Assembly (NCBI RefSeq): GCF_021917145.1
Contig: NC_061065.1
Location: forward strand, 2,252,767-2,316,766
Direction of reading: 5' to 3'
DNA: 64,000 nucleotides
DNA from: Hypomesus transpacificus
Lineage: Eukaryota; Chordata; Actinopteri; Osmeriformes; Osmeridae
Positions 6,323 to 59,900 of this stretch are shown here, piece by piece (position 1 is the first letter of the stretch; every line of letters starts with the position of its first letter). The translations under genes and the position numbers were made by a program. A model generated the notes under the pieces. It saw nothing but the letters and a program-made list of their open reading frames with translations. It was not told the DNA's origin and did not search any database.

Positions 6323-7557
6323 TCAGATCTTATTGGCTTTCCAGGATAGGTAGGAATTCCAGGCCACGGCTACAATCTGAACGACAGCCAGTCTGTGAAC
6401 AGGAGAACAGTACGTCACAACTCTTCCAGAAGAGGGGTCTACTTTTCAGCCCCACACACAACAGCAGAGGACGTTTACTCATCAAGTACAGATCAGTGGT
6501 TAGAGCAGATCAAGGGTGTGAAGGAGAGAGCAGGGTGTGGAGGAGAGAGCAGGGTGTGGAGGAGAGAGCAGGGTGTGGAGGAGAGAGCAGGGTGTGGAGG
6601 AGAGAGCAGGGTGTGGAGGGTGTGGAGGAGAGAGCAGGGTGTGGAGGGTGTGGAGGAGAGAGCAGGGTGTGGAGGAGAGAGCAGGGTGTGGAGGAGAGCA
6701 GGGTGTGGAGGGTGTGGAGGACAGAGCAGGGTGTGCAGGTCAACCTGTGCTGCAGTGGAATGAAGTAGAAGTTGGCGATCTGCACGGGAGGCCACAGCTG
6801 AAAACACAACACGCACGTCATGTCTAATACTAAGAAACATGATCATTGCAATAAACGTTTATAGTTTATACAGTTTATAGGCACTAACTTACGTAGTAGT
6901 TGGAGATCAAGGCATCTGTGTAATCCTGTTGAACATGAGAAAGAAGTACAAACATGACATGAATATTGTGTTCATTTGGCACATGTCCATCTAAACCGAG
7001 GTACGGGGGATTCGAAACTGAGACTTCTAGATCTGCATGACGAGCTCATTTCTCAATCAGAACATACAGACAACCAGAAACATTTAGTTTCTAACAGACT
7101 TCTACATAAACCATCCATACACCCCTCACATCTCTCCTGTCAGAAGAACAGTCCAGCTGTTCCAAGGTTTGTATTAAGTGTAAGGTTCCACCCTTGATCT
7201 GTTCCTGTTCATGTGTAGACACCAGCCCCCTGGTCTGAAACGTGTCACATGTGGCTGTCCCTAGACGAGGTGACGATGACACGTTAACAACCACGGGTCA
7301 AGGAGTGCCCACCCGGTGACACCCCGCCCCCCCCACCCCTAACCTCTCCAGACCATATAAACCCTGTCTCCTGCTGGGCCTGAACAAGCCCACAGCTGTT
7401 AACAAGCCTTCCTCCCATCACCTTAAAGGTCACCAGACGGAGTCAAACACACACAATGTTCCTGAAACTGCGTATTTTCCAATCTTTTGTTTGTTTTCTG
7501 GTGCGTGACCGGGTCTGATGACGAGTCCCAGGCTACCTTGTGGCGCGTCGCAGCTCA

Positions 7558-7588
<31 letters not shown>

Positions 7589-10500
7589 GCCCCTTCCCGT
7601 TTTGAAATATATATTTTTGGGCATTTATTTATACATGCCCAAATATATGAATAATTACTTATTAAAACTGGAATGTTGAGAGCTCTGTTCATCTCTGCTG
7701 TCCTGCGGAGACACCGGTCCTCTGAACGCCAAGTTCAGCTGAACCACCAGCACCTAAACTAGGTCTACCTGACCCAAACTAGGTTCCACCTGGACTCAAG
7801 CTTTTTATATGCTCTATTCGTACGTCACTTTGGATAAAAGTGTCAGCTAAACGTATAAAATGTGAAAAAGGTTCCATCTGACCTAACCCAGGTTCCCCTG
7901 GTATGAACGGTTATTAGTAAATTAGTAAATTAGTAAATTGGTAAATTAGTTAGTCCTGTACTGTACTGTTGTAGCCCCAGGTTAGTCCTGTACTGTTGTA
8001 GCCCCAGGTTAGTCCTGTACTGTAGTAGCCCCAGGTTAGTCCTGTACTATACTGTTGTAGCCCCAGGTTAGTCCTGTACTATAATGTTGTAGCCCCAGGT
8101 TAGTCCTGTACTGTACTGTTGTAGCCCCAGGTTAGTCCTGTACTGTACTGTTATAGCCCCAGGTTAGTCCTGTACTATACTCACCCTCTCCAGCTTGTGG
8201 ATGTTGTCCTCCAGGCTCAGCCCGTTCAGACTCCCTGAGATCCCCAGGAACGATGCCAGGAAGCAGGGAGCAAAACATACCTGCACGCACACGCGCACAC
8301 ACACGCGCACACACACGCACAGACAGATTTAGAACACCAGGATGAAACAGGAGGTGGTCTGGACACTGCTGAGCATGGTGGCTTCATCACAGTACATGAT
8401 TTTACACATCTCCTCCTCTGACAGGTGATTGGCTGTTACACATCTCCTCCTCTCACAGGATTGGCTAAGTGGATGACTAACGAGCCTTTACACTACTAAC
8501 AATAACCCCCCAAGTTCCACTGGAACTAAAGGTTTGAAACAGAAATTTCTAACCTTTAAATCCACCCTGACTCAAGCAGAGCATGTACGTTTTTGTTCCA
8601 GCGTTTATTAAACAACCACTTTCATGGCCAGGGACAATGCTGCACGTTTACATACTTTGTTGTTTACTTTTTCCTGCATTAAGTGGCCTTTGCCCAGCGT
8701 TTCAGAAAGACCCAGGAGAGCGTGTTCAAACGCTGCTTTCTATGGGGCTCCGTTTGTAAAAGGTTGCATGTCCGTTATTCCTGCTCAGTTTTCGCACATT
8801 TAGCACAAATAAATGCAGCAGAATGTTCAACGGTCTCTTTTTTTTACATTTAGAGGGATATTCATCTAAATACATGTCATAACTTATTCAGAGCAATGTT
8901 CTGCAGTATGCAAAATAATAAAATAATATTTTACAGAACTGTTAAATGTAAATGTTAAATGCAAATGTTAAATCTAAATGTTAAATCTAAATGTTAAATG
9001 TGTAATTCACACATTTAGCTAGACACGCCCCCCTAATGTTTTCTGGATTTTTCTGGAAACCACGTGATTTTTCTCAGCCTCCCCGGGTCATCTTCAGCCA
9101 CGCCCCCAAACAAGAGGCGGGTGGCCTCTGCTATATTGGCCAATAGGCATCAACTTGCTAAGTTTGATGAGAAGAAGGAGGCTCGTGATTTTCAAAACTG
9201 ATTTTAGGTGAAGTGTCACCTCGCCATTTCGATATTAGGAAAACATGCGGTTCAAACATTCCTACATAAATATAGCGGTGGTACACCTTTTTGAAATCGA
9301 GCTAAACGGCTCACTAAGACCTGGGTGAACCCCATGTCAATATTTTTTTTACAGTTAAAGCATAGCCACTGGTAGATCATCAAAAATGTCTCTCTTCTCA
9401 TCAAACTTAGCAAGTTGATGCCTATTGGCCAATATAGCAGAGGCCACGCGCCTCTTGATTGGGGGCGTGGCTGAAGATGTAGACCCGGGGAGGCTGAGAA
9501 AAATCACGTAGTTTCCAAAAAAATCCAGAAAACACTATGGGGGCGTGGCTAGCTAAATGTGTGAATTACACATTTAACATTTACATTTAGATTTAACGTT
9601 TAGATATAACATTTATATATAACATTTAGATTTAAAATGCACATTTACATTTAACATTTACATTTAACATTTATATTTAATATTTACATTTAACATTTAC
9701 ATTTAACATTTAAATGTCAATAGGCCTCGACTCCTCCCACCCTGGACACTCCGTTTCAGTCACTCCCCTCCGGCAGAAGGCTGCGGTCCATCAGGACCAA
9801 ACCCGCACGCCACACAAACAGTTTCTTCCCTTGCGCTGTTGGCCTCCTCAACAAGACCAAGAGTTCACACTGACTTTAATGACTTCATGTCTTGAAACAA
9901 TTGCATTTGCACTACTTCACAATTCGTGTAATATTTGTATTTTAAATTGTATTTTATGCTGTAAATTGGCAACTTATATTTTATTTGAATTTTATGGCAA
10001 CTTATATTTCATTTTATTGTATATTTTATTTTAATTGTATTCCACTTAGTATTGCTAGTTTATGTATCCTTGGTATAGTTAGACCATATATCTAAATTTA
10101 AGATTCCTATATGTTTATTGTATGCACCTTCCTGCCAAAGCAAATTCCTTGTCTGTGCAAACTTTCGTGGCGAATAAATCCCTTTCTGATTCTGATTCAC
10201 ATTTACATTTAACAGTTTTATAAAATATTTATTTTATCATTTTGTAAACTGAAGAACATTGCTCTGAATAAGTTATGACATGTATTTAGATTAATTTCCC
10301 TCTAAATGTTTAAAAAAGTGACCACTCGAAATTCTGCTGCATTTCTTTGTGCTAAATGTGCAAAAACTAAGCAGGAATAACGGACGTGCAACCTTTTACA
10401 AACGGAGCCCCATAGGTTTCAGAATGCCCCAGGAGAGTGTGTTCAAACGCTGGTTTAAACCATCTCCACCCAGTGAACCTGGAGCAGGTTGGTCACCAGG

Positions 10501-12671
10501 GAATGTCTCGACAACCTTAAAGGTTTGAGTGAATGAACAGCATGAATGTCAAATGTATTTAGTGATTCCAGAATGTAAGTGATTTTTGTTGATTGAAAGT
10601 GATGCCAGAGAAACAATTGGATGGACAAAAATAATGTATTTTCTTCTATTCTAATACTTTGTTGATGCTTTGTTAGATTTGAAATACTTGAACTGGGTAA
10701 CCTACAGCCCTATTCTAGACGTTATTACATGGAAGAGGACCGAGGCTCTGGAGAGAGCGGCGCTTCAGTGGAACTCAGAGTGATCAGGCTCCAGTCAGCG
10801 CTGCTAATGAAGCCAGTTTACAGTTTAGACAGAACACACCATCATCACAGCCGCCCTCCCCCCCACACACACATCCCCAGTCAGCCAGTGTGTGTGTGGC
10901 TGTAGGGGGGTGGACACCATCAAACTGGGGCTCTATTATAAGCCATGGAATCCCTGTAAGGAGAAAATTATGTTCAAAAATAGAAAACTGGAAATCTCTG
11001 TGAAAGAGCTTGCTGTCCTGCTCCTGGCTTTATCCCCCCTGCAGGGGGGGGGGCAGTATTGTCCTCAGGCTATTCAGATGCCCCAACATTAGCCAACAAC
11101 GTTAGCTTCCTGTTTCAGACAGGATTACCACACACACTCGCACCCGTGGCCAGTGCTAACACACACCTACTGTAACACACACACATGAACCCCCCCACCT
11201 GGTCCAGCAGCATCTTCTGCAGGGCAGCAGTCTTGGTTGTCCCGGTGACGAGCCGGTCTAGAACCTTGTACCACCCTCCAATGACAGGGCCCTGGACACA
11301 CACACACACACACAGTGTTCAGACTGCATGGGAATGAATCCCAGATGATAAAGTGTGTAAAGATGTAAATATAAACGTGGTCAGGAATGCTGCCCTCTCT
11401 GGTCGCTCATGGTATCACACCCCGCTACAGCAACATCACAGACAATAGAGCTGTATGAAGTTAAGGAGATTACAAGTATAAATAAACTTTGTCTACGCAA
11501 CTCTGACGGAACACAGCCCAGTAGAATACAGGAGTGTTCCTCCAGGGTGTACAGTAGAGGACACACAGATCCCCTCTCTCGCTCTCGCTCTCTATCCTCT
11601 CTCTCTCTCTCTCTCCTCTCTCTCCTCTCTCTCTATCCTCTCTCTCCTCTCTCTCTCTCCTCTCTCTCTCTCCTCTCTCTCTCTCCTCTCTCTCTCTATC
11701 CTCTCTCTCTCTTTCTCGTCAAACTGGGTGATCTGGGATGGTGCCAAAAGCCTAAGCCCCAGGGGTAGGAGGGAAGGGATGGGGGGAGGAGGGGAGGGAT
11801 GGTGGGAGGAGGGGGAGGAGGGGAGGTATGGGGGGAGGAGGGGAGAGATGGGGGGAGGAGGGGAGGGATGGGGGGAGGAGGGGGAGGAGGGGAGGGATGG
11901 GGGAGGAGGGGAGGGATGGGGGGAGGAGGGGAGAGATGGGGGGAGGAGGGGAGGGATGGAGGAGGGATGGGGGGAGGAGGGGAGAGGAGGGATGGGGGGA
12001 TGAGGGAGGAAGACTCACCACAAAGAAGAAACCTATGCTCATCATCCTTGCTGTCCGGGCTACGTTGTGATTGGCCAATCCTCGCCTCTCAATCACCTGC
12101 TGCGAGATAACATCACCAGCCCCAACCAGAGAGCCTGGAGGAGAGAGGGAGGAGAGAGGGAGGAGCAAGGGGGAGGAGAGGAGGAGAATGTTCCCACACG
12201 GTTACATGTCCACTCAAGGCCTTGAGGACCTAAGGTGAATATCAGGAGGAGATGAACAGGTGAGCTGCCATCTTTGCTGCGTAACGTACATCAGAGTTTA
12301 TAAGACTTATAAACAGCATCGCCAAAATGCCATCCAGTGTTTCAGAATCAGAAAGGGATTTATTCGCCATGAAAGTTTGCACAGACAAGGAATTTGCATA
12401 CAATAAACATATAGGAATCTTACATTTAGATATATGGTCTAACTATACTAAGGATACATTATACTGAGGATAATGGTGTGTGTGAGTCTCCAGTATAAAG
12501 TGGATGTGTGTTTAGATTCAAACACACAACCTTATCCCCTCCAACCTGGAAGTCAGGTTTGAATAACATCCAGGAACCTCTACTGGTCTACGATGCAGAT
12601 CAAGTGTAGCCCTGCACAATATGATGCAGACTGTTATAAAACAACTGCGATATGAATCTCAATGGAAGGCA

Positions 12672-12704
<33 letters not shown>

Positions 12705-15258
12705 CTGTGTGTGTGTGTGTCTGTGTGTGTGTCCATCATGTTGACAGAGCTGTTCCTCCTCTCTGAAGTAAATGTCAGTCTCCTTCCCTGTGCTGGTCAT
12801 CGATCTGCTCTGCCTCAAACTAGCTCAGGGAGCCCCTTCCTCTGCCTCCCCTTCATCTGCCTCTCCCTGTGTGTGTGTGTGTGTGTGTGTGTAGGGACTT
12901 CCTAAGGTCATGCAGGTCTTCTCCAGCCAGAGAAGCAGCTCTTTAGAAGGAGCATCTTAACGACACACTGCAGCTCCTGTCTAGAAATGTCACCAGAACT
13001 CAAGACTGCTGGAAGACAGACATCTGATGTATGCTTTCATTCTCCCTCTATCTCCTACCGGAACACACACACACACAAAGAGCATGCACTTAGTACATTC
13101 GAAGAATAATCATCTTTCCTGTCTTAAGTTCATGTCAGTGTTTACAGCTTTCAAGTGTTCAGAGACTGAAGTCAGGCCCTGGGTCTGGTGAGGGACTCTG
13201 TCCTCAACACACACCTTCAACACTGTAAATATCACAGAAACACACACACTGTAAATGTTCTTTCTGAGAAATTGTCTTTCAACCTGTCTGGCGGACAGCC
13301 CCCTTACTCCAGGTAACCTTTACAAAACCTTAACAACACCACATAAGACCGGGGCTCCGCCCAAACGACCTTCTAGCACCTACTCATAAACCCAGGAAAT
13401 AGAGCACAGTGGTTAGAGCATCTGACAACAGATTAAGAGGTTGCAAGTTCAAATCCCACTGTTCCTTGTTTTGGATCAAATCAACTGCTTCATGACTAAG
13501 TGCTTGGTTCAGAGCGAGGCAGCCAAGGACTCTGCCCTTGGAGGCCGGAGAGCCATGGAGAGGCAGGGGAGGCTGGAGGCAGGCTGGACGCAGCCCAGGC
13601 TAAGTGCTGCGGTCTGGGGAGAAGTTGGCAGCTGTCCCCCTGCTGTCCTGGCTGGTCCAAAGGGGAGGGAGAAATGGAGGAGAAAGAGAGGGGGACAGAG
13701 AGAGGAGGAGAGATGGAGGAGGGAGAGAGGAGGAGAGATGGAGGAGGGAGAGAGGGGGACAGAGAGAGGAGAGATGGAGGTGGGAGAGAGGCGGAGAGAT
13801 GGAGGAGGGAGAGATGGATCCAGAGCGTTTAGCTGATGATGATGATGGCCTGACCTGGTCCTGACCTCGCTACACTGTGACTTTGAGATGCGTACTGACA
13901 CTGGACTCTTCCTTCAGTCATCCCTCGCTCCCCCCCTCCCTCATCCCCCCCTGCACAATCTGGATGGAAAGCCTTCCAGAACATTTATGGAAGCTTTCCA
14001 GAATGTCCGCAGCAGAAATAACTAACTGGATTATCACACACACACGTCCATTTGCAACAAACAAGACTACAGCAGTAAACAGACTTCGAAACAAAATGAC
14101 GTTAGTGCTCATGGGCTAATGGGTATGTCTGTGACTAAGTTATTGGGCGGAGCCTATGCTCAAGGAACCAATCGTCCCTTCACAACAAGCCAGAGTGTCG
14201 CCTGATGTGAGACATGCCACAAAGACAGTTCCTGTGTGTGTGTGTGTGTGTGTGGGGGGGGGGGGGGCAGAGTGGGTTTGTGGTTGTGTGTGTTGGAGGG
14301 GGGGGGGAGTGTGTGTATAGGGGGGTAAGGTAAACTATCCCATAATAGCATCCAGCCTTCACAGGAACCACATTGGGCCTGGCATCTCACCAGGGTTTGT
14401 CACTGCGGTAACGCAACACTAAAACATGACATGCTGTTGACATTCTCTAAGTGAATCATTTCCGGTCACACACACACACACTTGTCATCTAGGAGGAGCC
14501 CCTCCAGAGAGACCGAGTGAGGGGGGGGGGGGGAGACTGTGTGTGATGGAGGAGGACAAGTGATGCAGGGTGCAGGGTGAGTCAGGGTGAAGTAGCAAAG
14601 TTATTAAAGATCAGAGGGTTTAACCAGCACCAACACTAGACAGCATGTCACTGTTCAGCTCTCCAGTGGCCAGACACTGATGGGTCAGGTGACCTGTGAC
14701 CCCAGACACTGATGGGTCAGGTGACTTGTGACCCCAGACACTGATGGGTCAGGTGACCTGTGACCCCAGACACTGATCGGTCAGGTGACTTGTGACCCCA
14801 GACACTGATGGGTCAGGTGACCTGTGACCCCAGACACTGATGGGTCACAGACATCTACAAATATATACATGAAGATTTGATTGGATGTCCTGCCTTGCCC
14901 TGGATTCCTCCTCTGACCAATCACAGCCTTAGCAGGGCGCCACGGAAACATAAGTGGTACAAGTTACACCGTCACTGAGTCAACAGGAAGTAGAATGAGG
15001 TGATGTTTACATACCGGCCGGCCAGCCCGTTTAGATTCACCCCCCCTCTCCCCCTCCTCAGAGGGGTAAACACTGGGAATAGTCTCTGAGATGGAGTTGA
15101 CCTCGCTGTTCTGGGTTTCAGCCCAGAGAGCGTTGAAGGGAATCTCAGGGAGTTGGCCAGAGAGGTGTGTGTGTGTGTGTACCTGCTGTGATGATCTGGA
15201 CAGACCAGGGGTGTGTGTGTGTGTGTGTGTACCTGCTGTGATGATCTGGACAAACCAG

Positions 15259-15292
<34 letters not shown>

Positions 15293-15365
15293 CTGCTGTG
15301 ATGATCTGGACAGACCAGGGGTGCCTGATCATCAGGGCCTGGTAGGATCTCCACAGGACAGACAT
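6323..15365 (-). CDS. mpv17: mpv17: inner mitochondrial membrane protein MPV17
   Basis: Complete 177-aa MPV17/PMP22-family channel-like protein of the mitochondrial inner membrane, needed for mtDNA maintenance; loss gives the transparent/roy orbison zebrafish phenotype. Human MPV17 is 176 aa. Coding exons on the minus strand: 15293-15365 ([17 protein letters not shown]), 12019-12134 ([17 protein letters not shown]), 11199-11291 ([14 protein letters not shown]), 8185-8280 ([13 protein letters not shown]), 6893-6925 ([11 protein letters not shown]), 6745-6797 ([16 protein letters not shown]) and 6323-6392 ([17 protein letters not shown], stop TGA). All have GT-AG borders and matching phases. 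An extra ATG sits one codon upstream (15368). The exon 6745-6797 donor is weak (GTTGAC). Five of the six introns carry a tandem array or CA repeat close to the donor. An upstream non-coding exon is likely. Confidence 0.96.
6515..6736. repeat. minisatellite in mpv17 last intron
   Basis: Tandem units of GAGAGCAGGGTGTGGAG (17 bases, some shortened) on the plus strand, about 13 copies. It begins fewer than 10 bases downstream of the mpv17 donor at 6744-6743. Open frames on both strands here are repeat shadows. Confidence 0.95.
7561..7588. repeat. poly(C) run of about 28
   Basis: Nearly uninterrupted C homopolymer in an mpv17 intron. Its length is likely to be unstable and error-prone in sequencing. 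Confidence 0.95.
7810..7845. repeat. teleost SINE-type 3' tail (TTTGGATAAAAG motif)
   Basis: Carries CACTTTGGATAAAAGTGTC, a variant of the motif (usually GCTTTGGATAAAAGCGTCTG) that ends many teleost SINEs. Related copies lie near 32628, 36849, 37590 (reverse), 58593 (reverse), 59430 and 60804. Confidence 0.6.
7930..8178. repeat. about 33-base minisatellite at mpv17 exon donor
   Basis: Seven or so copies of a unit containing GGTTAGTCCTGTACTGTA and TTGTAGCCCCA. It starts about six bases into the intron after the donor at 8184-8183. On the gene strand each unit carries GGACTAACC, resembling a branch-point core (CTAAC). Confidence 0.92.
8695..10453. mobile_element. long inverted-repeat (foldback) element in mpv17 intron
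   Basis: Two arms in opposite orientation, about 8695-9210 and 9388-10453, share the same blocks in mirror order: TATGGGGCTCCGTTTGTAAA, a TAACTTATTCAGAGCAATGT block, ATTTAACATTTAC simple repeats, GGGGCGTGGCT blocks and TATTGGCCAATA. A unique loop of about 175 bases separates them. The right arm is interrupted by a LINE 3' end (about 9715-10198). No coding capacity is seen, so it is a non-autonomous palindromic element of unidentified family. Confidence 0.8.
9715..10198 (+). mobile_element. 5'-truncated LINE 3' end inserted in the foldback element
   Basis: Begins with a degraded reading frame that has the SHPGHS...[17 protein letters not shown] pattern typical of the C-terminus of CR1/L2-type reverse transcriptase ORFs (LPSGRR-R-I-T pattern). 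It continues through an AT-rich 3' UTR and ends in a TTCTGATTCTGATTC tail. Partial copies of the same 3' end lie at about 12343-12475 and 57960-58020. The assignment to an L2/CR1-like clade is by pattern only. Confidence 0.6.
11575..11716. repeat. (CT)n microsatellite
   Basis: CTCTCTCC-rich tract with occasional ATC interruptions, in the mpv17 intron upstream of the exon at 11199-11291. Confidence 0.95.
11770..12008. repeat. GGGAGGAGGGGAGGGAT minisatellite in mpv17 intron
   Basis: G-rich on the plus strand and C/T-rich in the mpv17 transcript. It begins about ten bases into the intron after the donor at 12018-12017. Rich in G runs and therefore G-quadruplex capable. Confidence 0.93.
12343..12475 (-). 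mobile_element. LINE 3'-end fragment (reverse copy)
   Basis: Starts GAATCAGAAAGGGATTTATT and contains TTTGCACAGACAAGGAATTT, the reverse complement of the tail at 10100-10198. A 5'-truncated copy of the same family in an mpv17 intron. Confidence 0.7.
12676..12735. repeat. (TG)n microsatellite
   Basis: TG dinucleotide tract with a few TCTG interruptions in an mpv17 intron. A second, shorter TG tract lies at 12868-12893. Confidence 0.9.
13390..13460 (+). mobile_element. tRNA-derived SINE fragment
   Basis: Has an A-box-like stretch (CACAGTGGTTAGAGCATC) and a B-box (AGTTCAAATCCC) at the right spacing, but no cloverleaf ends, so a SINE head rather than a tRNA gene. Confidence 0.5.
13670..13815. 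repeat. GA-rich minisatellite
   Basis: GGAGAGATGGAGGAGGGAGA-type units in an mpv17 intron. Overlapping open frames are repeat shadows. Confidence 0.9.
14671..14850. repeat. 33-base minisatellite, about 5 copies
   Basis: Contiguous units start CAGACACTGATGGGTCAGGT and end TGTGACCCC, with a C/T alternation between units, in an mpv17 intron. Confidence 0.93.
15162..15330 (-). repeat. mpv17: tandem copies of mpv17 exon end + donor + CA repeat
   Basis: The last about 30 bases of the first mpv17 coding exon, its donor (GCAG|GTACAC) and a CA tract occur three times in tandem. The genuine copy is at 15291-15320; intronic copies are at about 15231-15260 and 15181-15210. The intronic copies keep the exon 3'-end sequence and a consensus donor but lack the start codon and an acceptor. 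Confidence 0.93.
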
Positions 15366-15837
15366 CATTACCCACTTCTGCAACACACACACACATCTTA
15401 TTAGATAAGCATGAAAAAAGCAACAATGCATTGGCTTTTTTAGAATGCTTAAATTTTGGTCAAATGCCATACTTTTTTTACTCGTTACGCAAGTCCCAAC
15501 ATGCAATGCCCTGCGCGAGAGACGTGCTCTATCTCGAGGATGCTGTTAACTAATAACAGGCACGTGTTCAACTCCACAACGCTACGCATTAGCGAAATGT
15601 TAGAACATTTATACATTAAAAACAAATACTACCAAATATTTCTATACTATGAGATATAAAGCCATGTCGGCGTGTTAGAGTCCTGTCAGGCCAACACAGC
15701 AGGACAGTTTCTGGCTCTACTTCTTAGTTCTTACACTTATGCAACAGCAAGTACGATTTTGAAATAAAATAGTTCGTATTTAGTTACACAACAAGAACCT
15801 ATCGTAAGATGAATAGTAACATTCCTAAAGGGCTCAC

Positions 15838-15960
15838 CCGGTTGTACTGACACCGATACAAAGAGACAGTAGAATAAAAGTGTTACATGCCTGTTTCCTC
15901 CGGTCCAAACGAGAGGCAGAGGAACACCGGGCAACACGTCACTTCCACTATAAACACGCA
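15838..15960 (-). other. mpv17: mpv17 putative non-coding first exon
   Basis: The ATG-bearing exon has an acceptor (TTGCAG at about 15378) 9 to 12 bases before the ATG, so a 5' UTR exon must lie upstream. A strong donor, CAACCGG|GTGAGC (GT at 15837-15836), follows GC-richer sequence. The 5' limit is a guess. Confidence 0.4.
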
Positions 15961-26500: not shown

Positions 26501-27205
26501 TTCCAAAGTGAAGTCTGTGTGACGGATGTGCTACTGACAGACTGAACACTCTCCTTCTGTCACTCCTGCTGCCTCAGCTCTGGGTGAGATAAGGGAAACC
26601 AGAGGCAGAACAAAGGGTAGAGGAGAGAGAGGGAGAAGGGAGAGGAGAGAGGAGAAAGGGAGAGGAGAGAGGGAGAGGAGAGAGGGAGAGGAGAGAGGGA
26701 GAGGAGAGGGAGAGGAGAGAGGGAGAGGAGAGAGGGAGAGGAGAGAGGGAAAGGGAGAGGAGAGAGGAGAGAGGGAGAGGAGAGAGGGAGAGGAGAGAGG
26801 GAGAGGAGAGAGGGAGAGGAGAGAGGGAGAGGCGGGGGGGGGGTGGGCAGTCATACCTTACTGTGATCTCACGCTGGGATGGTTAAAGGGGTTCAGGGTA
26901 CAGCAAGTATTTCATTACACACACACACATACAAACACACGGGAGAGAAATAAAAACCATGAAATGAGACAAGCATTCAATGCCTTTTTCCACCCCACCC
27001 CCTTCTCCCGCCCCAAACACACACAACCCTTTAATGAAGGGAGTCCACACAGACCCATCAAGCAGTGGTATTCATGCTGCAACTCAAGATCCCATTAATC
27101 ACTCACACACACACACACACACAACGCCACTGGCTGTGAGAAGCACTTCTATTCTTCCTTTCCATTATCTCAGATGAGCCATGGGCCAGTAGCCTTATAT
27201 TATGT

Positions 27206-39050: not shown

Positions 39051-39133
<83 letters not shown>

Positions 39134-39176: not shown

Positions 39177-39234
<58 letters not shown>

Positions 39235-39289: not shown

Positions 39290-39353
<64 letters not shown>

Positions 39354-46255: not shown

Positions 46256-46261
46256 TTTATT
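46256..46261 (-). promoter_or_regulatory. gtf3c2: candidate poly(A) signal of gtf3c2 (AATAAA)
   Basis: AATAAA on the gene strand about 570 bases after the gtf3c2 stop and about 300 bases from the convergent slc30a3 signal. Confidence 0.4.
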
Positions 46262-46829
46262 CCTGATGCAAAATTACTCAGTGGGAGTAAAGAAGTAGAA
46301 AACAAACAGCAGGACGATGAGAACGTGTCTAAAGTGCTGTTTCTGTAACCTCTGTGAACAAGCCAGATTCTCTAAAAAAAAGCTTCTTGTTACCATAACA
46401 ACCTGAGATACAAACTTCCTACATGGTTAAATAGGAGGAGAAGATAAAAAAAGACAAAACTGTTTACAACATATCAGCAAAGCAGCATTTCTTTTAAGTT
46501 ATTGATTAAAAAAGACATTGCAAATGATAAAAACAACACTACCAGGGTGATACATATTTAGATAAAAATAAGTTGACCCTTTATATTTAACGTAACTAAA
46601 CTCTTTCATCTTGTGTTGCAGCTGAACCCTCAAAGTCCACAGGAAGGCAGTCCATGTATATCTCTCACGGAACTTTGTAGGTGAAGAGTTCTGGAACACC
46701 TACCAGAGTTCTCAAGTTGTTCTGAGGATAGAAGCTCCAGAAAGGCCCAGGTTTGTTTTAGAATGTTCTAGAAAATCTCAGGAAGATTCTAGAGTGATTC
46801 TGAATGTTCCGGAACATCTTGGGAAGGTT

Positions 46830-47896: not shown

Positions 47897-47952
<56 letters not shown>

Positions 47953-50900: not shown

Positions 50901-53900
50901 GAGGAGAGGAGAGGAGGGGAGGAGTGTGGAGGGGAAGAGGAGAGGAGAGGAGGAGTGTGGAGGGGAAGAGGAGAGGAGGAGTGTGGAGGGGTGTGGAGGG
51001 GAAGAGGAGAGGAGGAGTGTGGAGGGGAAGAGGAGAGGAGGGGAGAGGAGGAGTGTGGAGGGGAAGAGGAGAGGAGGGGAGGAGTGTGGAGGGGAAGAGG
51101 AGAGGAGAGGAGGGGAGGAGTGTGGAGGGGAAGAGGAGAGGAGAGGAGGGGAGGAGTGTGGAGGGGAAGAGGAGAGGAGGGGAGGGGTGTGGAGGGGAAG
51201 AGGAGAGGAGGAGTGTGGAGGGGAAGAGGAGAGGAGGGGAGAGGAGGAGTGTGGAGGGGAAGAGGAGAGGAGAGGAGGGGAGGAATGTGGAGGGGAAGAG
51301 GAGAGGAGGAGTGTGGAGGGGAAGAGGAGAGGAGAGGAGGGGAGGAGTGTGGAGGGGAAGAGGAGAGGAGGGGAGGAATGTGGAGGGGAAGAGGAGAGGA
51401 GAGGAGGGGAGGAGTGTGGAGGGGAAGAGGAGAGGAGAGGGGAGGGGAGGAATGTGGAGGGGAAGAGGAGAGGAGAGGAGGGGAGGAGTGTGGAGGGGAA
51501 GAGGAGAGGAGAGGAGGGGAGGAATGTGGAGGGGAAGAGGAGAGGAGGGGAGGAGTGTGGAGGGGAAGAGGAGAGGAGGGGAGGGGAGGAATGTGGAGGG
51601 GAAGAGGAGAGGAGGGGAGGAGTGTGGAGGGGAAGAGGAGGGGAGGAGTGTGGAGGGGAAGAGGAGAGGAGAGGAGGGGAGAGGAGGGGAAGAGGAGAGG
51701 AGAGGAGAGGAGGGGAGGGGAGGAGTGTGGAGGGGAAGAGGAGAGGAGGAGTGTGGAGGGGAAGAGGAAAGGAGGGGAGGAGTGTGGAGGGGAAGAGGAG
51801 AGGAGGAGGACTAACGTGGCGTAGGCGTTCTCCTGGGCCAGAAAGACTCCCGGCCAGAGCAGCGGCCATGACACTTCAGTGGATAGAAAGCGCTTCAGAC
51901 AGCTGATGGGTTCAGAGGTCATCTTCAGGTCCCAGGTTTTCACCATCCTGTCATCCCCCGCTGTCACCAGCAGACCACTGGAGGGGGGGAGGTGTCAGAA
52001 AAGACATGCAAGATTGAAGAGTCATATACAAAATGACAGACAAGAAGAGGAGGGGATAGGAGAGGGGGAAGAGAGGAGGATGAAAGGAGAGGTGTGCTGG
52101 AGGAGACAATGGAGGAGGGCGAGGAGGGCGGTCACATGGAGCTAGAGAGAAAGAGACACAGACCCCCCCGTTACCTGGAGGCGGGGCAGAAGCTGAGGGC
52201 ACGGATGGCGTTGTCGTGGGCGAGGAAGGCGTGGCAGGGCAGCAGGGTGAGGGAGCAGTCAGGTGATTTCACTCTCAGCAGCACCGACCTGCTGGACAGG
52301 TCCCACAACCCCACCATGCCTGCGACACGACCAGGAGGTCGACCAGGAGGTCACCAACAGGAAGAGCCAACCCCGATATGTGGTGGTGTGTGTGTGGCGT
52401 TGTGGTGGTGTGTGTGTGGCGTTGTGGTGGTGTGTTTGAGGTCTGGTACCGTCATAGAAGCCAGCTGCTATCCGGTTGTACGGAGCAACAGGAAGCCAGT
52501 CCAGAGATAGAACCTGACCACTCCTGTCCTCATGGCTGGCCTTGACCGAACCCAGCCTCAAAGTGATCACAGCCTTGGCCTGGACACACACACACACACA
52601 CAGTGTGAGGGAGAGCGTGGGAGGTGGGGGAAAGAGAAAATGAAAGATATTGAGGGGGGGGGGGGGGGGTGAGCTATTTGCCTACCTGGCATATCAGTGG
52701 TGCTTGGCTTGGGTTTCCTGCAGTAGCAGACATAAAACATGTTTATTAACTTCTGATCTGTATTGATTGGACGATTCAAAGTCCTTATTACTGAAGACAG
52801 GGTTTAGGGCTAACCTATATCACCTTATATCAGCAAACACACACACTTCCCTGATGTCAAGATGGCATACAAGAGGAATGTCTGACAAGGGGGGGGGGGG
52901 GGGTGAGGGGGGGTGAAAGAAAGACCTTAGGACTAGACCCAGACCCCAGGCCTGAGTCCTGGGTGTCTAATAAGATCACCCACAATACCACACACAAATA
53001 CACCCCCCCCCCCCAGTGTGCCAGGCTCCAGGGTGAGGGAGGGAGAGGCTCCAGGGTGAGGGAGGGAGAGGCTCCAGGGTGAGGGAGGGAGGGAGGGAGG
53101 GAGGGAAGGAGAGAGGGAGAGGCTCCAGGCTCTGTCTGTCCCCCAGCAGGCTGGCTGTGTGTCTTCTCTGTCACTTCAATTACAGGCTCTGTCTGGGGGA
53201 ACTAGGCCATACATCATCCCCTGACCACACCACACCACCAGCCCCCACCTCCCCATCTCCCACCTTTCCTTTCTCTCCTTATTCATGTTTAACAGGATCA
53301 CACTCACTCACTCTCAACACAAGAGGTTTAGAATTACCCGTACTGAACACACCCCCCCTCCCCTGGACACCTCCCCCCCTCCCCTGGACACCTCCCCCCC
53401 TCCCCTGGACTCCTCCCCCCCTCCCCTGGACACCTCCCCCTCTCCCCTGGACACCTCCCCCTCTCCCCTGGACACCTCCCCCTCTCCCCTGGACACCTCC
53501 CCCCCCCCTCCTCCTCATCTTTAACCCCTCCTGACAGGTGCTCAGATCATGCTGACATCAGTACAGGAAGCACTTTGGAGGGGTGAGCTCATTTGCAATT
53601 CATTAGTTATTCATTAGTTTTGGGTCCATTTCAATTACCACTATCATATTATATAATAAAGGGGAAAAAAGCTAGTTTTTATCAATACAGGATAATGTAT
53701 TTCTGTCTATACCAAATCTCAGTGGACTCCTCTCCCCAGCCTGGTTACAGAGGTACATAAAACACTAGAGCAGAGTTCAGGAGATGGAGGGCGAAAGAGA
53801 GACAGGTACCTCAGGATTACACCACAGGTACCTCAGGGATTACACCACAGGTACCTCAGGGATTACACCACAGGTACCTCAGGGATTACACCACAGGTAC

Positions 53901-56900
53901 CTCAGGGATTACACCACAGGCGTTTGAACGGTGCCCCCTTCTGGGATAATACATGAACTGCAGTTTTATCCACACAACACACCAGTTTTATCCACACAAC
54001 ACACCAGTTTTATCCACACAACACACCAGTTTTATCCACACAACACACACCAGAGATTGTGTGCACACTCATGTTTAAATAGACTCTGGTAAAAGTTGAC
54101 TGACTACACCTTTTCACTCAAGTTAGAGTAAAGAAGTGTGGTCTCTGACATATACTGAAGTAAAAAGTAGCCATTCCTACGACCTGTTTTAGTGTCACGC
54201 CGGTAACTGGACCTCACATCATATTAATACGTTAATACATAAGTACACTACAGACACACAGTGTATTTGCCAGAAATCCTTTTTGACACTGATAATCTCC
54301 CTCACATATGGCCATGGGTGATCAGGAATGTCTCTATTCTCAGTCATGTCCACATCACTAACTCCCCCTGCCTCATCCATAACATTTGTTTAAACTGTTT
54401 CTTCAACCTATCTTTTTTTGTAATCTTTTTTTTCTCATCTTTTTTTTCAGAATCTTTTTTTTTCACACACATAGTGAAAGAAAAAAGAAAGGACATTTTT
54501 CAAAACTTTTGTTGAAAATATATTTTCAACCTTTTCAGGCTGTTTTTCAGAAAAAATATTATTTCTACTTCTAGGACTTTAAATGTCCTAAAAACTTTCA
54601 ATTTATTTGGCTAGTTCACTGGCTAGTTCACCCCTACGACACTAGCCTAACCTACTGAATGAATGAATGAATGATCTAACAAAACAATATCAATCTCGAA
54701 GGAGGAAATGTGGAAATTAGGTTACACTGAAACAAGGAATGTGGTGTATAATTGTATGAAATCTATGGTGAAAATTGGTTAGCAATTTCGCCAAGGAAAT
54801 ACCAAGAAATAGGCTGCAGTTTGTCTTTCAACTAAGTTTGCAAAATCCGCGATGGGACTGAGCTTGAATAGCTTCGACTACTTTTTATAGTACAAAATCG
54901 CTGTCAATCAAAAGGAGATGCAGTCTTTCGACAGACCCTCCAATCATCACACGGAAGCCCAGCGTCCAGGCCAGCTGGACGCTCAGCGTCTCTGGGCGGG
55001 ACATAAGCGCAGCATTTATCCAATGACCGTTTAGTTTCGAAGCATAAAAAAAACTGTTCAAAGCAGCCCCATTGAAGTCCATGGAAGCTGAGCTTCAACA
55101 GGGAAATGCACTGTGACGCTACGGGCATGTATGAGAAGGAAATCAGTCAGTCGACCTGCTAATATATGTAGCTGATTCTGAACGAACTCGTCTTTGATAT
55201 GAACGTGTTCTAACGCATTTCAAATGTTAACACAATAGTAAATATTTGACCATGAATTTTTTTTTATGTTAGGGAAAGCTGAGCTTCCCTTGCAGTCTTA
55301 AAGAAATCCCCACTGGTAGAGAGTATAGTCCACCTACACACCCACCTACCTGCGGAGGAGGGTCTGAGGGCGCTGGGGTGAGGCAGGCTGTAGATGGAGA
55401 TCAGTCCGCTGGAGGAGGCTGCAGCCAGCAGGCCCAGCCTGGGCAGCAGGAGAGCCTGGAGGGGAGACACTCAGCTGGGGCCAGGACTAACTTGTGTGTG
55501 AGTGGGTGTGTGTGAGGGTGGGGGTGTGTGTGTGAGTGGGTGTGTGTGAGGGTGGGGGTGTGTGGGTGTGAGGGTGGGGGTGTGTGTGAGTGGGTGTGTG
55601 TGTGAGTGTGTGTGTGTGAGGGTGGGGGTGGGTGTGTGTGTGTGAGGGTGGGGGTGTGTGTGTGAGGGTGGGGGTGGGTGTGTGAGGGTGAGGGTGGGGG
55701 TGGGTGTGTGAGGGTGAGGGTGGGGGTGGGTGTGTGAGGGTGGGGGTGTGTGTGGGTGTGTGTGTGTGAGGGTGGGGGTGGGTGTGTGTGTGGGTGTGTG
55801 TGTGAGGGTGGGGGTGGGTGTGTGTGAGGGTGTGTGTGTGTGAGGGTGGGGGTGGGTGTGTGTTACCTTCCTGGCTGTGCTGGGCATCTCCCAGGCCCCC
55901 GCAGGGCACCACTTGAGGATCGACACACAGCCCTTCTCCTGAGCCAGGCCATAGGCCAGCCTTGGGGGAGAGGAGGGGCTGGGGGGGGGGGGGGGGGGGA
56001 GAGGGAGGGGGGAGGGAGGGATGGGGGCGGGGAGAGGGAGGGAGGGGGGAGGAGGGAGGGGGGCGGGGGGTCGGAGAGGAAGGGGGGGGGGAGAGGGAGG
56101 GGTGTTGCAGTCCAGATCTTAGAGATAAATATGTATTGTATGTATGTATGTATGTATGTATGTATGTATGTATGTATGTATGTATGTATGTATTTGTATG
56201 TATGTAACTATGTATTTATATCTTCAGTCTACAGCCGATACGCACACATAGCACACATATTTAATGTGTAAGTGATCCAGGATTGTGTGTGTGTGAGTAC
56301 CGGGTGTTGTAGTCCAGGATTGTGTGTGTGTGTGTACCGGGTGTTGTAGTCCAGGATTGTGTGTGTGTGTGTACCGGGTGTTGTAGTCCAGGATTGTGTG
56401 TGTGTGAGTACCGGGTGTTGTAGTCCAGGCAGCCCAGGTCCCAGAGCTGGATGAGGCTGGGCTGGGTGTGGGTCTGGCTGAAGTGGTGCTGCTCGTCCTG
56501 GTCTCCATGGCAGTAGAGGGCAGCGTACTGGTTGGCACGCGCTCCGTCTGGGGTGGGACACCAGTCCAGGGCCCAGACTGGACCCCCCGCGTAGAACAGC
56601 ATGTCCCAGCGCTCTGGGTGGGGAGGTAGACTCTCAAACCTGGGTGCAGGAGGGAGAGTAGGGGGCAGGAGAGATATTTCACTTTGGAACAAAAGGTTGG
56701 AGGTTCAAATCCACCCCTGTACATTGCTATAGATAACAATGTTATGATCATAGTATGAATGTGAGAGTGAGACCTGTTGAGACTGCGAAGGGGAGCGTCC
56801 TCTTTGATGCCCTCTCTGGACACCCTGAAGGCTGGAGACTGCTGCTGTCTGGGGAGGTACCTTTCACACTCCCTGACACACACACACACACACACACCTT

Positions 56901-59900
56901 AGTTAACACACACTTCACTTTAGTTACTTCCTGGAACAAGAATACACCACACACACACTTTAGTACAAAGAGGTTGTTGTCATAGCGGCCCCACCAGGAC
57001 ACAAACAGACACAACCACTGAACGACAGGTCTTTGATTCCAAAAGGATTCCTTGTTAGAGCAGGAAAGTACCAGCTTACTTCAAGTGTGATGATGTTTAC
57101 CTTTCTGGGAGGACGGGCCAGTCCTTCTCAGAAGGAATCCACTCAGGGAACACCCAGGAAGACGAGTGCTGATCACGACTGCAAAACAGCAGCAAGTGTC
57201 TCTCAGACTGGTTTCACACTGCCCCCTACTGGCCCAACACCAGTACTTCATCCTGACTTCAGCTGGCAGGGGGGTGGGGGCACAGAAAGGGGGGGTGGGG
57301 ACACAGAAAGGGGGGGGTGGGGGCACAGAAAGGGGGGGTGGGGGCACAGAAAGGGGGGGGTGGGGGCATAGAAAGGGGGGGTGGGGGCATAGAAAGGAAA
57401 GGGTGGGGGCACAGAAAGGGGGGGGTGGGGGCACACTAAAGGGGGGGGGTGGGGGCACAGAAAGGGGGGGGTGGGGGCAGAAAGTGGGGGGTGGGGGCAC
57501 AGAAAGGGGGGGGGTGGGGGCAGAAAGGGGGGGTGGGGGCACAGAAAGGGGGGGGTGGGGGCAGAAAGGGGGGGGTGGGGGCACAGAAAGGGGGGGTGGG
57601 GGCACAGAAAGGGGGGGGTGGGGGCACAGAAAGGGGGGGGTGGGGGCAGAAAGGGGGGGGTGGGGGCAGAAAGGGGGGGGTGGGGGCACAGAAAGGGGGG
57701 GTGGGGGCACAGAAAGGGGGGGTGGGGGCATAGAAAGGGGGGGTGGGGGCATAGAAAGGGGGGGTGGGGGCACAGAAAGGGGCCAGGTGTTTGGTACTCA
57801 CTGGTTCTTGGTGGCCTTGTTGGCGTCCCACACAGCCTTCATCAGACAGTTGGGAAGCCCATTGGAAGCTTTACCTTGTAACTGAAGGGACTTCAGCAAG
57901 ATCAAACACAAACAGCAGGATGTTAATGAAGGGACTTCTTCAGCAAGATAATCAGAATGGGTTTTAGAATGGGTTTTATTCACCATGAAAGTTTGCACAG
58001 ACAAGGAATTTGCTTTGGTAGGGAAGACACTAGCGGTGTTTAGCTCACGATTCAATACTGGGTGTACGATACAATATGTATCACGATATTTTGAACAACA
58101 GTTTTAATTAAACCAATTCAATTAACAGATTTATTTGCAAAACATTTTCAATAATTTTCTTTGTTGTACATCCAATTTAGTTAACTCAGTTCAAGCGATT
58201 TCTGTGAATGCAATGAATGCACACATGACGCAGGTGCAGAGTAGGTTGCGTGCTGGTAGCTCAACCAATAGGATCAAACGGATGTCATACTGTAAAAATG
58301 TTACCATACCTCTACGATACATATTGTAAAGATGTTGTATTGTGATATCTTGTTCCACGATATATTGCTCCACCTCTATAAGACACTAACAGCAGGACAT
58401 GAAAGAAGGCTTGACGGGTTTGGTACAAAGCAGAAACCACCTCTGTGTTTCAGTCACAGAGGTGTGTTGGATTCTAGATAATGTGGGAAGGACGTGTTGT
58501 ATATTTGGATCCTTTGGGAGCTTGCCTAGGATAAAAGCATCTGTTACACGTGTCCACGGGCACTCTTCCATGGTTCCCCATTTTCTTTTTAATTTAGCAG
58601 ACACTCTTATCCAGAGCGACTTACAGTAAGTACAGGGACATTCCCCCGAGGCAAGTAGGGTGAATTGCCTTGCCTAAGGAGACAACAACACTTTTGGCAT
58701 GAACGGGTATCGAACTGGCAACCCTCTGAGTAGTAGCCCGATTCCTTAACTGCTCAGCCACCTGACTAGCCTGGTCCTAACCAGACCCTCGTACATTTCA
58801 TTTGTACAGAGGGTCTGGGATGTCTCGATTGACAAACGTTAACTTCCTTGAAGGCGGGTCCTCTGTTGAAGTTTAAAACTATTGGATCCACCCAGAGCCA
58901 CTCTGATTAGCCATAGCCAATCGCAAGCGTTCGCCTTAGCCAACTCCTTCACCACTACTGTAACGGAGCTAGCTGCGTAGCTGGAAAATCAAACTTTTCC
59001 CGAACCCCGTGGGGAGGAGGGCCACAACATCATGGCCCCCAACAAAACTCAGCAAGGAATGTTCTTGCTCCGGCTTTAACCTATATTCGGCAGCGTTGCC
59101 ACAACCGCAGAATAGTTTCGCTCACATCTTTCTCCGCCGCCATTACTAAACTACTCAAACAAGTGCACGACATTAACGTCATCATTCGTAGCCACTCCCT
59201 CTGTTCGCTGATTGGACCTACAAAAAAATTGTTTCTGGAAACCGACTTCAGAACCGACATCCCAGACTTAGTACAGAAGCAAAATCCAAATTGAGCGGAA
59301 GTACGTAGGAGGGCAGAGCCAGGCTTCCACCTGACTCCCTTTGCTCCACAAAATAGCTATAAGGGTGGAACAGGATATTGCTCAGTGGTTAGAGCATTTG
59401 ACTGCAGGTCACCCTGTGCACATTGCTCTGGATAAAAGCCACTGCTAAATGAACATATTATTGTAAGGCGAAAGACACAATACTGTGAGGTAACTTGTAG
59501 GGGAACTCACCTGTGTCTTGGTTGAGTTTTTAAGCGCTGGGTTTTTGGATCTGGGTTCCATTGGTTCTGGTACTCCTTCATCCTCACTCTCCTCCTCTTC
59601 CTCCTCATCTATACCCAACGGGACAAAGTCTTCATCCTCCACAGTGCTGTCGCGATCCGAGGATGGGGTTCCCTTCTTCCTCCCCCGGCCGCACTGAGCA
59701 GCCTGCCGTGGCCCCTGCCTGGGGGCAGGGCTGGGGGCGGGGCTATCATCTGAACTGGGCTCACTCAAGACCTCTTTGGCCAAGTTGTGAAGGTACTTTA
59801 ACGCTCTGTAAGGCGGCAAACAAAACCGTGTTATCAAACATAATTTAATTTTTTTATTGCATGGTCTTAAACTCTAGCCGCCAGCATGGTCATAGGACTT

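Follow-up and report, generated by a model that had tools for sequence, protein, structure and literature searches.

Tandem arrays in the introns of one fish genome adjoin exons about twice as often as expected by chance, on both sides of the intron

Intronic tandem arrays in Hypomesus transpacificus adjoin exons about twice as often as expected by chance, and this holds on both sides of the intron. In a pooled sample of 240 introns carrying 155 arrays, array edges come within 20 bp of 37 donors, compared to 16.1 expected (2.3-fold, 0/20000 shuffles), and within 20 bp of 32 acceptors, compared to 16.1 (2.0-fold, P=5e-5); these and all other P-values are nominal, several thresholds having been used. 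A previous sequence-only reading of this DNA had proposed that minisatellites systematically start at 5′ splice sites. The within-intron shuffle leaves the donor enrichment standing but, because acceptors are also enriched, the enrichment belongs to exon edges and not to donors alone.

The window, the stretch of 64,000 nucleotides that was analysed, is annotated with 44 introns in four genes: mpv17 (6 introns), uckl1 (14) and gtf3c2 (17) on the minus strand and a slc30a-type zinc transporter gene (7) on the plus strand. After splicing, the minus-strand genes have reading frames that are stop-free throughout and match their families. TRF was applied separately to each intron and the donor distance was measured to the first array base; window minisatellites were defined by a period of at least 10 and a score of at least 100. 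As chance model, arrays were shuffled inside their own introns, which preserves both intron length and array load.

The window introns were pooled with an independent sample from other parts of the genome, 196 introns in 20 segments of myosin genes. Myosin splice sites are homology-caller predictions with manual fixes and drops: 44 exons or introns were dropped, the criteria being dispersed-element matches, exons above 480 bp, named misfits, a donor score below 1, an acceptor score below 0, introns below 60 bp and non-GT-AG ends. The myosin pieces were picked by family matches and not by their arrays, with one exception: among the first 30 loci (L009-L038) the main analysis retained only L014, where a donor array had already been seen.

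In the window, 19/44 donors and 18/44 acceptors have some array, whatever its kind, no more than 40 bp away. Of the 27 array-bearing introns, 15 have a minisatellite starting no more than 20 bp from the donor, compared to 4.5 expected (0/4000 shuffles), and 6 have one that reaches within 20 bp of the acceptor, compared to 4.5. All eleven donors named by the sequence-only reading do carry arrays, ten of them within 40 bp and the one at 48700 at 41 bp, and its four CA or exon-end cases (15292, 20526, 47952, 56411) are present. At least four further donors with arrays had escaped it (27655, 60088, 52449, 41125). Nonetheless, 25/44 annotated donors lack any array at up to 40 bp, and therefore the word 'systematically' is not confirmed. 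The arrays in mpv17 and uckl1 are as follows.

15165..15323, minus strand: exon end, donor and AC run in about 2.8 copies of a 50-bp unit, mpv17 intron 1, donor 15292; spans the exon/intron junction
11762..12006, minus strand: CT/C-rich array, 8-12 bp past mpv17 donor 12018 (+8 bp by TRF)
7949..8181, minus strand: 32-bp minisatellite, +3 bp from mpv17 donor 8184 (TRF)
6513..6739, minus strand: 19/28-bp minisatellite, +5 bp from mpv17 donor 6744 (TRF)
12137..12187, minus strand: pyrimidine array, 2 bp upstream of mpv17 acceptor 12135; an acceptor-side counterexample
30142..30424, minus strand: 28-bp minisatellite, about 10 copies, at offset 0 from uckl1 donor 30422 (TRF); its units contain the donor-like CAGGTGGGTGAG
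27539..27640, minus strand: 21/41-bp array, 10-15 bp past uckl1 donor 27655 (+10 bp by TRF)
26625..26832, minus strand: 13-bp pyrimidine minisatellite, +24 bp from uckl1 donor 26856 (TRF)
24528..24570, minus strand: 18-bp few-copy array, +9 bp from uckl1 donor 24579 (TRF)
20438..20539, minus strand: exon end, donor and AC run three times in a 33-bp unit, uckl1 donor 20526; occupies most of the 118-bp intron
20810..23982, minus strand: 3.2-kb CT-rich array ending at uckl1 acceptor 20808, 378 bp from the donor; an acceptor-side counterexample
18098..20124, minus strand: 2-kb minisatellite with a 13-bp unit that stops 5 bp short of uckl1 acceptor 18093; an acceptor-side counterexample

The arrays in gtf3c2 and in the slc30a-type gene are listed below; the latter has arrays within 20 bp of 1/7 donors and 3/7 acceptors.

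59994..60071, minus strand: 18-bp minisatellite, +17 bp from gtf3c2 donor 60088
57269..57782, minus strand: 21-bp minisatellite, +19 bp from gtf3c2 donor 57801; 83% of the intron
56276..56429, minus strand: exon end, donor and AC run in about 4 copies of a 37-bp unit, gtf3c2 donor 56411
55493..55863, minus strand: 20/26-bp AC/C-rich array, +3 bp from gtf3c2 donor 55866 (TRF)
52379..52435, minus strand: 22-bp array, +14 bp from gtf3c2 donor 52449
50064..51810, minus strand: 31/67-bp CT-rich minisatellite, +5 bp from gtf3c2 donor 51815; 98% of the intron
49149..49711, minus strand: 17/37-bp CT-rich minisatellite, +13 bp from gtf3c2 donor 49724 (TRF)
48270..48659, minus strand: 15-bp minisatellite, +41 bp from gtf3c2 donor 48700 (TRF)
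47898..47950, minus strand: (AC)26, first base 2 bp past gtf3c2 donor 47952
41131..41229, plus strand: G-rich array with a purine-rich sense strand, 6-10 bp past slc30a-type donor 41125 (+6 bp by TRF)
39593..39709, plus strand: CT-rich array, 21 bp upstream of slc30a-type acceptor 39730 (TRF)
41641..41928, plus strand: 60-bp GT-rich array, 20 bp upstream of slc30a-type acceptor 41948 (TRF)
42193..42277, plus strand: 34-bp GT-rich array, 12 bp upstream of slc30a-type acceptor 42289 (TRF)

The enrichment is repeated in the independent genes. In the myosin sample alone, array edges adjoin 20 donors compared to 9.7 expected (P=1.5e-4) and 19 acceptors compared to 9.7 (P=5e-4), so the claim that arrays of unrelated units recur beside donors beyond chance also holds outside the window; a smaller myosin set of 142 introns gives 12 donors compared to 5.1. 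Removing L014 leaves 19 donors (9.2 expected) and 19 acceptors (9.3), and removing both L014 and L067 (VI1b) leaves 18 donors compared to 9.2, with many-copy arrays at 7 compared to 3.7 (P=0.026). As a check we used the left-out myosin loci, a partly overlapping set of 25 without L015, L016, L020 and L029, which are overlaps or copies of others. Alone, their 166 introns, 4 of them array-bearing, give 1 donor and 2 acceptors compared to 0.9 expected each; added to the main sample (406 introns, some overlapping), they bring the counts to 38 donors and 34 acceptors, with 16.9 expected each, and the many-copy result is unchanged. Resampling the 240 introns by gene gives observed-to-expected ratios of 1.73-3.07 for donors and 1.52-2.65 for acceptors. 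Under a null in which the 40 bp next to the acceptor stay free of arrays, 37 donor edges compare to 20.4 expected; only the donor column of this null was used, since its zone is trimmed to what is observed and an acceptor P is therefore not a valid test.

An array-dense window with short introns could place arrays near many donors by chance. Arrays do make up 40% of the window's intron sequence and 16% of that of the myosin sample, and array coverage shows no fall with distance from the donor, near-donor coverage soon equalling that of mid-intron. With no donor peak in coverage, our claim therefore rests on array edges and not on array amount. We nonetheless consider chance very unlikely, since the shuffle preserving length and load leaves the 2.3-fold donor excess in the 240 introns, rising to 3.5-fold in introns of at least 500 bp (19 donor edges compared to 5.4), and since the gene pieces were chosen by family, except L014, whose removal changes little. 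Given the flat coverage and the many mid-intron arrays (65/155 are over 60 bp away from either end), the suggestion that arrays elsewhere are purged also finds no support.

The two sides of the intron were further compared by copy number. Few-copy arrays (at most 3.5 copies), which come closest to newly arisen ones, adjoin 14 donors and 20 acceptors of the 240 introns, with 7.3 expected each; together with the near-equal totals (37 and 32), this leaves a specificity for donors unsupported. Taken by themselves, the myosin genes have a significant excess of few-copy arrays at acceptors (12 compared to 4.1) and no significant one at donors (7 compared to 4.1, P=0.09). Many-copy arrays (above 3.5 copies, period at least 7) adjoin 18 donors compared to 6.9 expected in the 240 introns (0/20000 shuffles), with 9 acceptors compared to 6.9 (P=0.20); the gene-bootstrap ratios are 1.67-4.15 and 0.60-2.96, and the same resampling puts the donor-minus-acceptor difference (18 vs 9) between -2 and +21. 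Other cut-offs find long arrays on both sides: many-copy arrays in introns of at least 500 bp adjoin 8 acceptors (P=0.006) and 11 donors compared to 3.5 each, and arrays with a period of at least 10 and a score of at least 100 adjoin 17 acceptors compared to 10.1 (P=0.007) and 26 donors in all 240 introns. A lean of many-copy arrays toward the donor side is suggested by the counts of 18 and 9 and is not statistically firm.

Donor-adjacent arrays are longer than internal ones (median 130 bp vs 67 bp, p=0.0025), and the median number of copies is 6.8 next to donors, 4.0 internally and 2.7 next to acceptors. Mean length is higher at acceptors (265 bp) than at donors (213 bp) because two uckl1 arrays of 2-3 kb abut acceptors; the difference in length between donor and acceptor arrays is not significant (p=0.18).

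We propose that slippage-prone DNA beside both splice sites seeds arrays and that splicing tolerance filters their growth, leaving long arrays mainly on the donor side, a reading whose chances we put slightly short of even. Seeding would be favoured in low-complexity, slippage-prone DNA just inside the intron, and splicing would then select which arrays may expand. On the donor side only about six intron bases would be required, and a tandem duplication covering the exon end and the donor would leave the first donor usable, so that arrays could start within about 25 bp of the donor and grow to hundreds of bases. On the acceptor side the branch point, pyrimidine tract and first AG would have to retain their spacing, so that acceptor arrays would be mostly few-copy and A-poor. 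The conserved exon would act as a wall, seldom crossed by array edges.

Composition is consistent with both steps. Array-free DNA is simpler near splice sites: in 186 introns, the low-complexity score is 0.66 at donors and 0.72 at acceptors compared to 0.50 in mid-intron (p=0.012 and 1e-4). Such low complexity could be decayed array instead of seed; we infer that it is the seed and not the remnant of old arrays. Acceptor-adjacent arrays are poor in A (5%) and in AG, with CT exceeding AG in 25/28 informative arrays. Arrays that span the junction with the exon likewise occur at donors only (5 compared to 0 at acceptors). On our reading the size lean, if real, would be due to splicing selection and not to mutation. 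Among the causes offered by the sequence-only reading, weak constraint fits best, as long arrays lean where splicing needs least intron sequence.

Pile-up at both exon edges could also arise by outward drift, in which an array may originate at any point of a short intron and, through new duplications, take in the unique sequence on its flanks until the constrained exon stops it; old arrays would therefore accumulate at both walls, with no special birthplace. The pile-up on both sides, including that of many-copy arrays at both ends of introns of at least 500 bp, agrees with drift, as do the 17/102 array-bearing introns that are at least 70% array and the compound units inside a single array, such as the 20/29/49-bp units at 11762-12006. 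We regard drift as rather unlikely, given that few-copy arrays, with little time to drift, are already edge-enriched when pooled (14 and 20 compared to 7.3) and that the highest ratio is found in introns of at least 500 bp, where the distance to cover is greatest (19 donors compared to 5.4).

Alternatively, donors may be a true mutational birthplace, with some property of the donor or of the DNA 3′ of it, for example R-loops or transcription-replication conflict, generating tandem duplications. Consistent with such an origin, window minisatellites favour donors (15/27 compared to 4.5) and, in the 240-intron sample, arrays extending at least 6 bp into the exon number five at donors and none at acceptors; these five duplicate the exon end plus the donor, and no array copies the acceptor. 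Genome-wide, perfect triplets of the donor motif CAGGTGAGT number 244 compared to 7 for the reversed motif, with 5596 and 3267 single sites. On raw triplet counts, 244 appears unexceptional beside a rotation control, with 171 for the rotated motif GTGAGTCAG and 295 for the reverse of that motif, and the 35-fold excess (about 20-fold after single-site counts) is therefore not taken as donor-specific.

R-loops require G-rich RNA. By base composition only, G4 motifs being a separate matter, donor-adjacent arrays have more C than G on the sense strand in 26 cases and more G than C in 13; the C bias is 15:3 in the window and absent in the myosin genes (11:10). The suggested R-loops thus gain no support, and neither does GT-rich slippage at donors, as AC exceeds GT in donor-adjacent arrays by 13:3 in the window with no bias in the myosin genes (10:9). 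Since acceptors are almost equally enriched, we consider a donor-specific birthplace distinctly unlikely. A decoy-donor filter, by which donor arrays would be GT-poor, was also dropped, the AC excess of the window being unrepeated in myosin.

Finally, arrays may have a function, those at the 5′ end pairing with complementary ones at the 3′ end and so drawing the splice sites close to each other, as in zebrafish (AC)m-(GU)n introns. AC runs are found at donors 15292, 20526, 47952 and 56411, and acceptor arrays favour GT (GT>AC 20:8). When the own 3′ end was ranked against the 3′ ends of 60 other introns (about 70 bases at each end), pairing was no stronger than with other introns' ends, either in the 33 introns with donor arrays (mean rank 0.507, KS p=0.73) or in 110 others (0.473, p=0.39). 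AC runs at the 5′ end and GT runs at the 3′ end, each of at least 4 units, occur together in 1/152 introns (first myosin set), other introns having only one of the two. With the donor AC bias also unrepeated in myosin genes (10:9), a pairing function appears the least likely of these explanations.

Arrays at exon edges are a variant of an already known splice-site repeat pattern. In human, PMC9065059 describes short tandem repeats as well as G4 and H-DNA motifs as enriched where exons meet introns, alongside relative G4 depletion in zebrafish. Here too, tandem-repeat and polypurine/polypyrimidine motifs concentrate beside splice sites, array edges adjoining 37 donors and 32 acceptors compared to 16.1 expected each in 240 introns. 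Unlike the short motifs of that account, the fish arrays include minisatellites with 10-70 bp units that reach kilobases, and unlike its G4 enrichment the donor sense strand is not G-rich. The zebrafish (AC)m-(GU)n class (Lin et al. 2016, Genome Res 26:12, as relayed in PMC9024468 and PMC9198270) is characterised by AC near the donor and GU near the acceptor, pairing of the ends and U2AF2-independent splicing. AC runs at some donors and GT runs at some acceptors resemble it, whereas most donor-adjacent arrays here are not pure AC repeats, and the introns show no excess of either end pairing or AC-GT co-occurrence.

Two further comparisons are the internal tandem repeats that duplicated human genes carry at exon-intron boundaries (PMC2812944) and the tandem splice sites of dual specificity (PMC10809524). 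With the present arrays they share repeats at these junctions and minisatellite units that include splice-site sequence; they alter exon content or create introns, whereas the three minus-strand reading frames here are intact. Sparid growth hormone and myostatin genes carry polymorphic intron minisatellites (PMC3045353). Like the present arrays, these are tandem arrays of varying copy number in fish introns; they concern single genes, and no donor-relative position was found stated in the portion available of that source. Our literature search found no study measuring minisatellite edges against donors.

A broader reading, in which exon edges are general minisatellite nucleation sites in this genome and the donor side, by tolerating duplications of exon end and 5′ splice site, gives rise to hypervariable introns, serial alternative donors and a continuing variation in splice sites and length that the acceptor side lacks, seems to us unlikely. 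A donor pattern spotted by eye requires the acceptor side as a control. If our proposal of seeding beside both splice sites followed by splicing-limited growth is true, the arrays would be a natural assay of the sequence that can change beside donor and acceptor, and runs of duplicated donors would be explained. Should whole-genome data agree, exon edges together with the splicing tolerance of each side would determine where genic minisatellites start.

We located tandem arrays with Tandem Repeats Finder (TRF) on the window and then on every intron separately, and worked out the exon-intron structure of four genes by reading the DNA, giving 44 introns (C6:2252767-2316766 of the 437-Mb assembly):

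Minus strand, 6 introns: mpv17 (Pfam Mpv17_PMP22)
Minus strand, 14 introns: uckl1, UPRTase plus uridine kinase (Pfam/PDB comparison)
Minus strand, 17 introns: gtf3c2, GTF3C2 (PDB 8cli_C, E = 3.5e-143)
Plus strand, 7 introns: slc30a-type zinc transporter (Pfam Cation_efflux)

Splice sites, both here and in the myosin genes described below, were derived from homology and reading frames; the spliced mpv17, uckl1 and gtf3c2 proteins are uninterrupted. The sequence-only reading had claimed that minisatellites systematically start at 5′ splice sites (donors). TRF finds the arrays at all eleven donors that it listed, ten of them starting no more than 40 bp away and one at 41 bp, mostly just past the donor consensus. 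The four AC or exon-end cases it named are also real, and further array-bearing donors lie at 27655, 60088, 52449 and 41125. The claim stands only in part, and not as a systematic rule specific to 5′ splice sites: 19 of the 44 donors have some array within 40 bp, but so do 18 of the 44 acceptors (3′ splice sites). The plus-strand slc30a-type gene leans to acceptors, with an array within 20 bp at three of seven compared to one of seven donors.

Expected counts were obtained by re-placing arrays at random inside their own intron, with array lengths kept; P values are uncorrected, and several score and size thresholds were tried. In the window, 17 introns have the edge of any array within 20 bp of the donor compared to 6.4 expected (0 of 20000 shuffles), and 13 within 20 bp of the acceptor compared to 6.4 (P = 0.0014). 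For minisatellites (period ≥10, score ≥100) the counts are 15 of the 27 array-bearing introns at donors and 6 at acceptors, with 4.5 expected at each.

Because the pattern was first noticed in the window, it could not be tested there, and myosin genes elsewhere in the genome were taken as an independent sample. A family search of the genome located them (163 kb in 30 pieces), exons were called by protein similarity among paralogues, and 196 introns from 20 gene segments made up the sample after removal of 44 exons or introns. Edge counts are 20 at donors (P = 1.5e-4) and 19 at acceptors (P = 5e-4), compared to 9.7 expected for each. Pooling all 240 introns, of which 102 bear arrays, gives 37 donors and 32 acceptors with an edge within 20 bp (16.1 expected each), and introns of at least 500 bp give 19 and 14 (5.4 expected each). 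Bootstrapping over genes places the observed/expected ratio at 1.73–3.07 for donors and 1.52–2.65 for acceptors. Of the 30 loci that the family search listed first, L014 alone was retained for the main analysis, once an array had been noticed there; leaving it out gives myosin counts of 19 versus 9.2 at donors and 19 versus 9.3 at acceptors. Adding 25 of the left-out loci, some overlapping, brings in 166 introns, 4 of them array-bearing, and the resulting 406 introns yield 38 donors and 34 acceptors compared to 16.9 expected each. Given this excess over shuffles at donors and acceptors, in the window and in the myosin genes, enrichment of array edges next to exons is two-sided, across a sampling of one window and one gene family.

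Array-free DNA is also simpler at donors (dust-like score 0.66) and acceptors (0.72) than in mid-intron (0.50; p = 0.012 and 1e-4). This fits a role of splice-proximal DNA as a slippage seed; decayed arrays could give the same values. Array coverage has no peak at the donor in the distance profiles of the window and the myosin genes: it climbs over the first 60 bp (window) or about 100 bp (myosin) and is then level. Nothing in this flat profile points to the purging of arrays away from donors that had been proposed. Arrays occupy 40% of window introns, 9.5% of intergenic and UTR sequence and 3% of coding exons, and 16% of myosin introns; these shares indicate that introns themselves are array-rich.

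Tandem arrays are scarce (0–1.6% of sequence per locus) in the clustered, mostly conventional myosin loci L017, L018 and L021-L038. Their share is 9% in introns of L042, L053, L055 and L056 and 17% in introns of the unconventional myosins; germline expression, base composition or compactness may lie behind these differences. A short dispersed element translating as WARHFTLLAS / LGKALHPTCL, excluded from exon calling, occurs in introns of L039, L042, L044, L047, L049, L050 and others. In the window, mpv17 intron 1 carries a 56–62 bp piece (12340-12397) with 94–100% identity to at least 39 other genomic places, among the 40 of 1580 candidates scored; it is likely to be the terminus of a dispersed element of recent origin, and by eye a resemblance recurs near 10140-10200 and 58000. 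Also by eye, a stretch of mpv17 intron 3 (8700-10500) looks like a large inverted repeat with TGTTAAATGTAAA arrays flanking its centre, and TRF reports arrays in this stretch at 8940-9001 and 9570-9713. A gtf3c2 coding exon holds a tandem array (48780-48868) coding for an acidic KERGEEGKEGGEEEGKEGGEE stretch. In the slc30a-type gene, coding exon 2 (39731-39922) apparently shifts frame once, which would reflect either an assembly error of one inserted or deleted base or damage to the gene itself.

The two sides differ in the arrays they carry. Few-copy arrays (≤3.5 copies) adjoin 14 donors and 20 acceptors in the pooled set compared to 7.3 expected; in myosin genes alone they adjoin 7 donors and 12 acceptors compared to 4.1, only the acceptor excess being significant. 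Many-copy arrays (period ≥7) adjoin 18 donors compared to 6.9 expected (0 of 20000 shuffles) and 9 acceptors compared to 6.9, no clear excess (P = 0.20). Arrays beside donors exceed internal arrays in length (median 130 versus 67 bp, p = 0.0025), and median copy numbers are 6.8 next to donors, 4.0 internally and 2.7 next to acceptors. The lean of long arrays to the donor side is nonetheless a suggestion and not a proof, since in introns of at least 500 bp many-copy arrays are enriched at donors (11, P = 5e-5) and acceptors (8, P = 0.006) alike, compared to 3.5 expected, and pooled arrays with period ≥10 and score ≥100 adjoin 17 acceptors compared to 10.1 (P = 0.007) as well as 26 donors. The bootstrap interval for the many-copy gap of 18 versus 9 runs from −2 to +21 introns. 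Donor- and acceptor-adjacent arrays do not differ significantly in length (p = 0.18), and those at acceptors, among them two uckl1 arrays of 2–3 kb, have the greater mean (265 versus 213 bp).

Five arrays repeat the exon end (≥6 bp) together with the donor (mpv17 15292, uckl1 20526, gtf3c2 56411, and myosin pieces L014 and L067), and none repeats an acceptor with the exon start. In L067, on the minus strand, with the donor at reverse-complement base 2144, the 28-bp unit, exon end plus donor GTAAGAGTC, stands in about 7–8 near-invariant copies, a recent-looking duplication. Arrays next to acceptors are 5% A and poor in AG, with CT exceeding AG in 25 of 28, the pattern expected if they must preserve a polypyrimidine tract and exclude AG.

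R-loops, suggested earlier as an origin, need G-rich RNA, and the idea fails because the sense strand of donor-adjacent arrays is C-rich in the window and has no bias in myosin genes. Triplets of the perfect donor CAGGTGAGT number 244 genome-wide versus 7 for the reversed string (single sites, 5596 and 3267), counts that take in overlapping matches within one array: the first hundred or so listed donor-triplet matches represent, as we read them, about 22 arrays on contigs C1-C14, and those of the rotated string GTGAGTCAG about 17 there. The rotated string has 171 triplets and its reverse 295 (raw counts), so donor-built arrays are unremarkable among same-letter strings. These counts speak against donor-driven array birth without settling the matter. 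Pairing of 5′ and 3′ arrays was rejected as a function, own-intron pairing ranking at 0.507 among the ends of other introns; AC and GT runs occur together in 1 of 152 introns. Zebrafish (AC)m-(GU)n introns, as described in PMC9024468 and PMC9198270, reportedly pair through their 5′ and 3′ repeats, whereas the introns here carry no such signal.

Splicing requires little donor-side sequence past the first six intron bases, and the acceptor side is bound by spacing and the first-AG rule. Most likely, arrays are seeded on both sides in simple DNA and their growth is filtered by splicing tolerance. Short tandem duplications would arise preferentially in the simple sequence flanking exons, and the exon would bar their inward spread. 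At donors, splicing may tolerate even duplicated donors, letting arrays grow long; at acceptors, spacing and the first-AG rule would tend to hold them short and A-poor. The seeding part draws on the counts here, and the splicing part on general splicing rules and the donor/acceptor asymmetries. The nearest rival, in which array edges drift outward until they meet an exon, could act jointly with seeding.

Our literature search, thin in subscription journals, found no measurement of minisatellite edges at exon edges. PMC9065059 describes human exon-intron junctions as enriched in G4 motifs, H-DNA motifs and short tandem repeats, and zebrafish G4s as relatively depleted there. In recently duplicated human genes, according to PMC2812944, minisatellites at exon-intron boundaries alter introns; here it is long fish minisatellites that meet exon edges. 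Across this fish genome, such long minisatellites are a variant of the known junction-repeat pattern.
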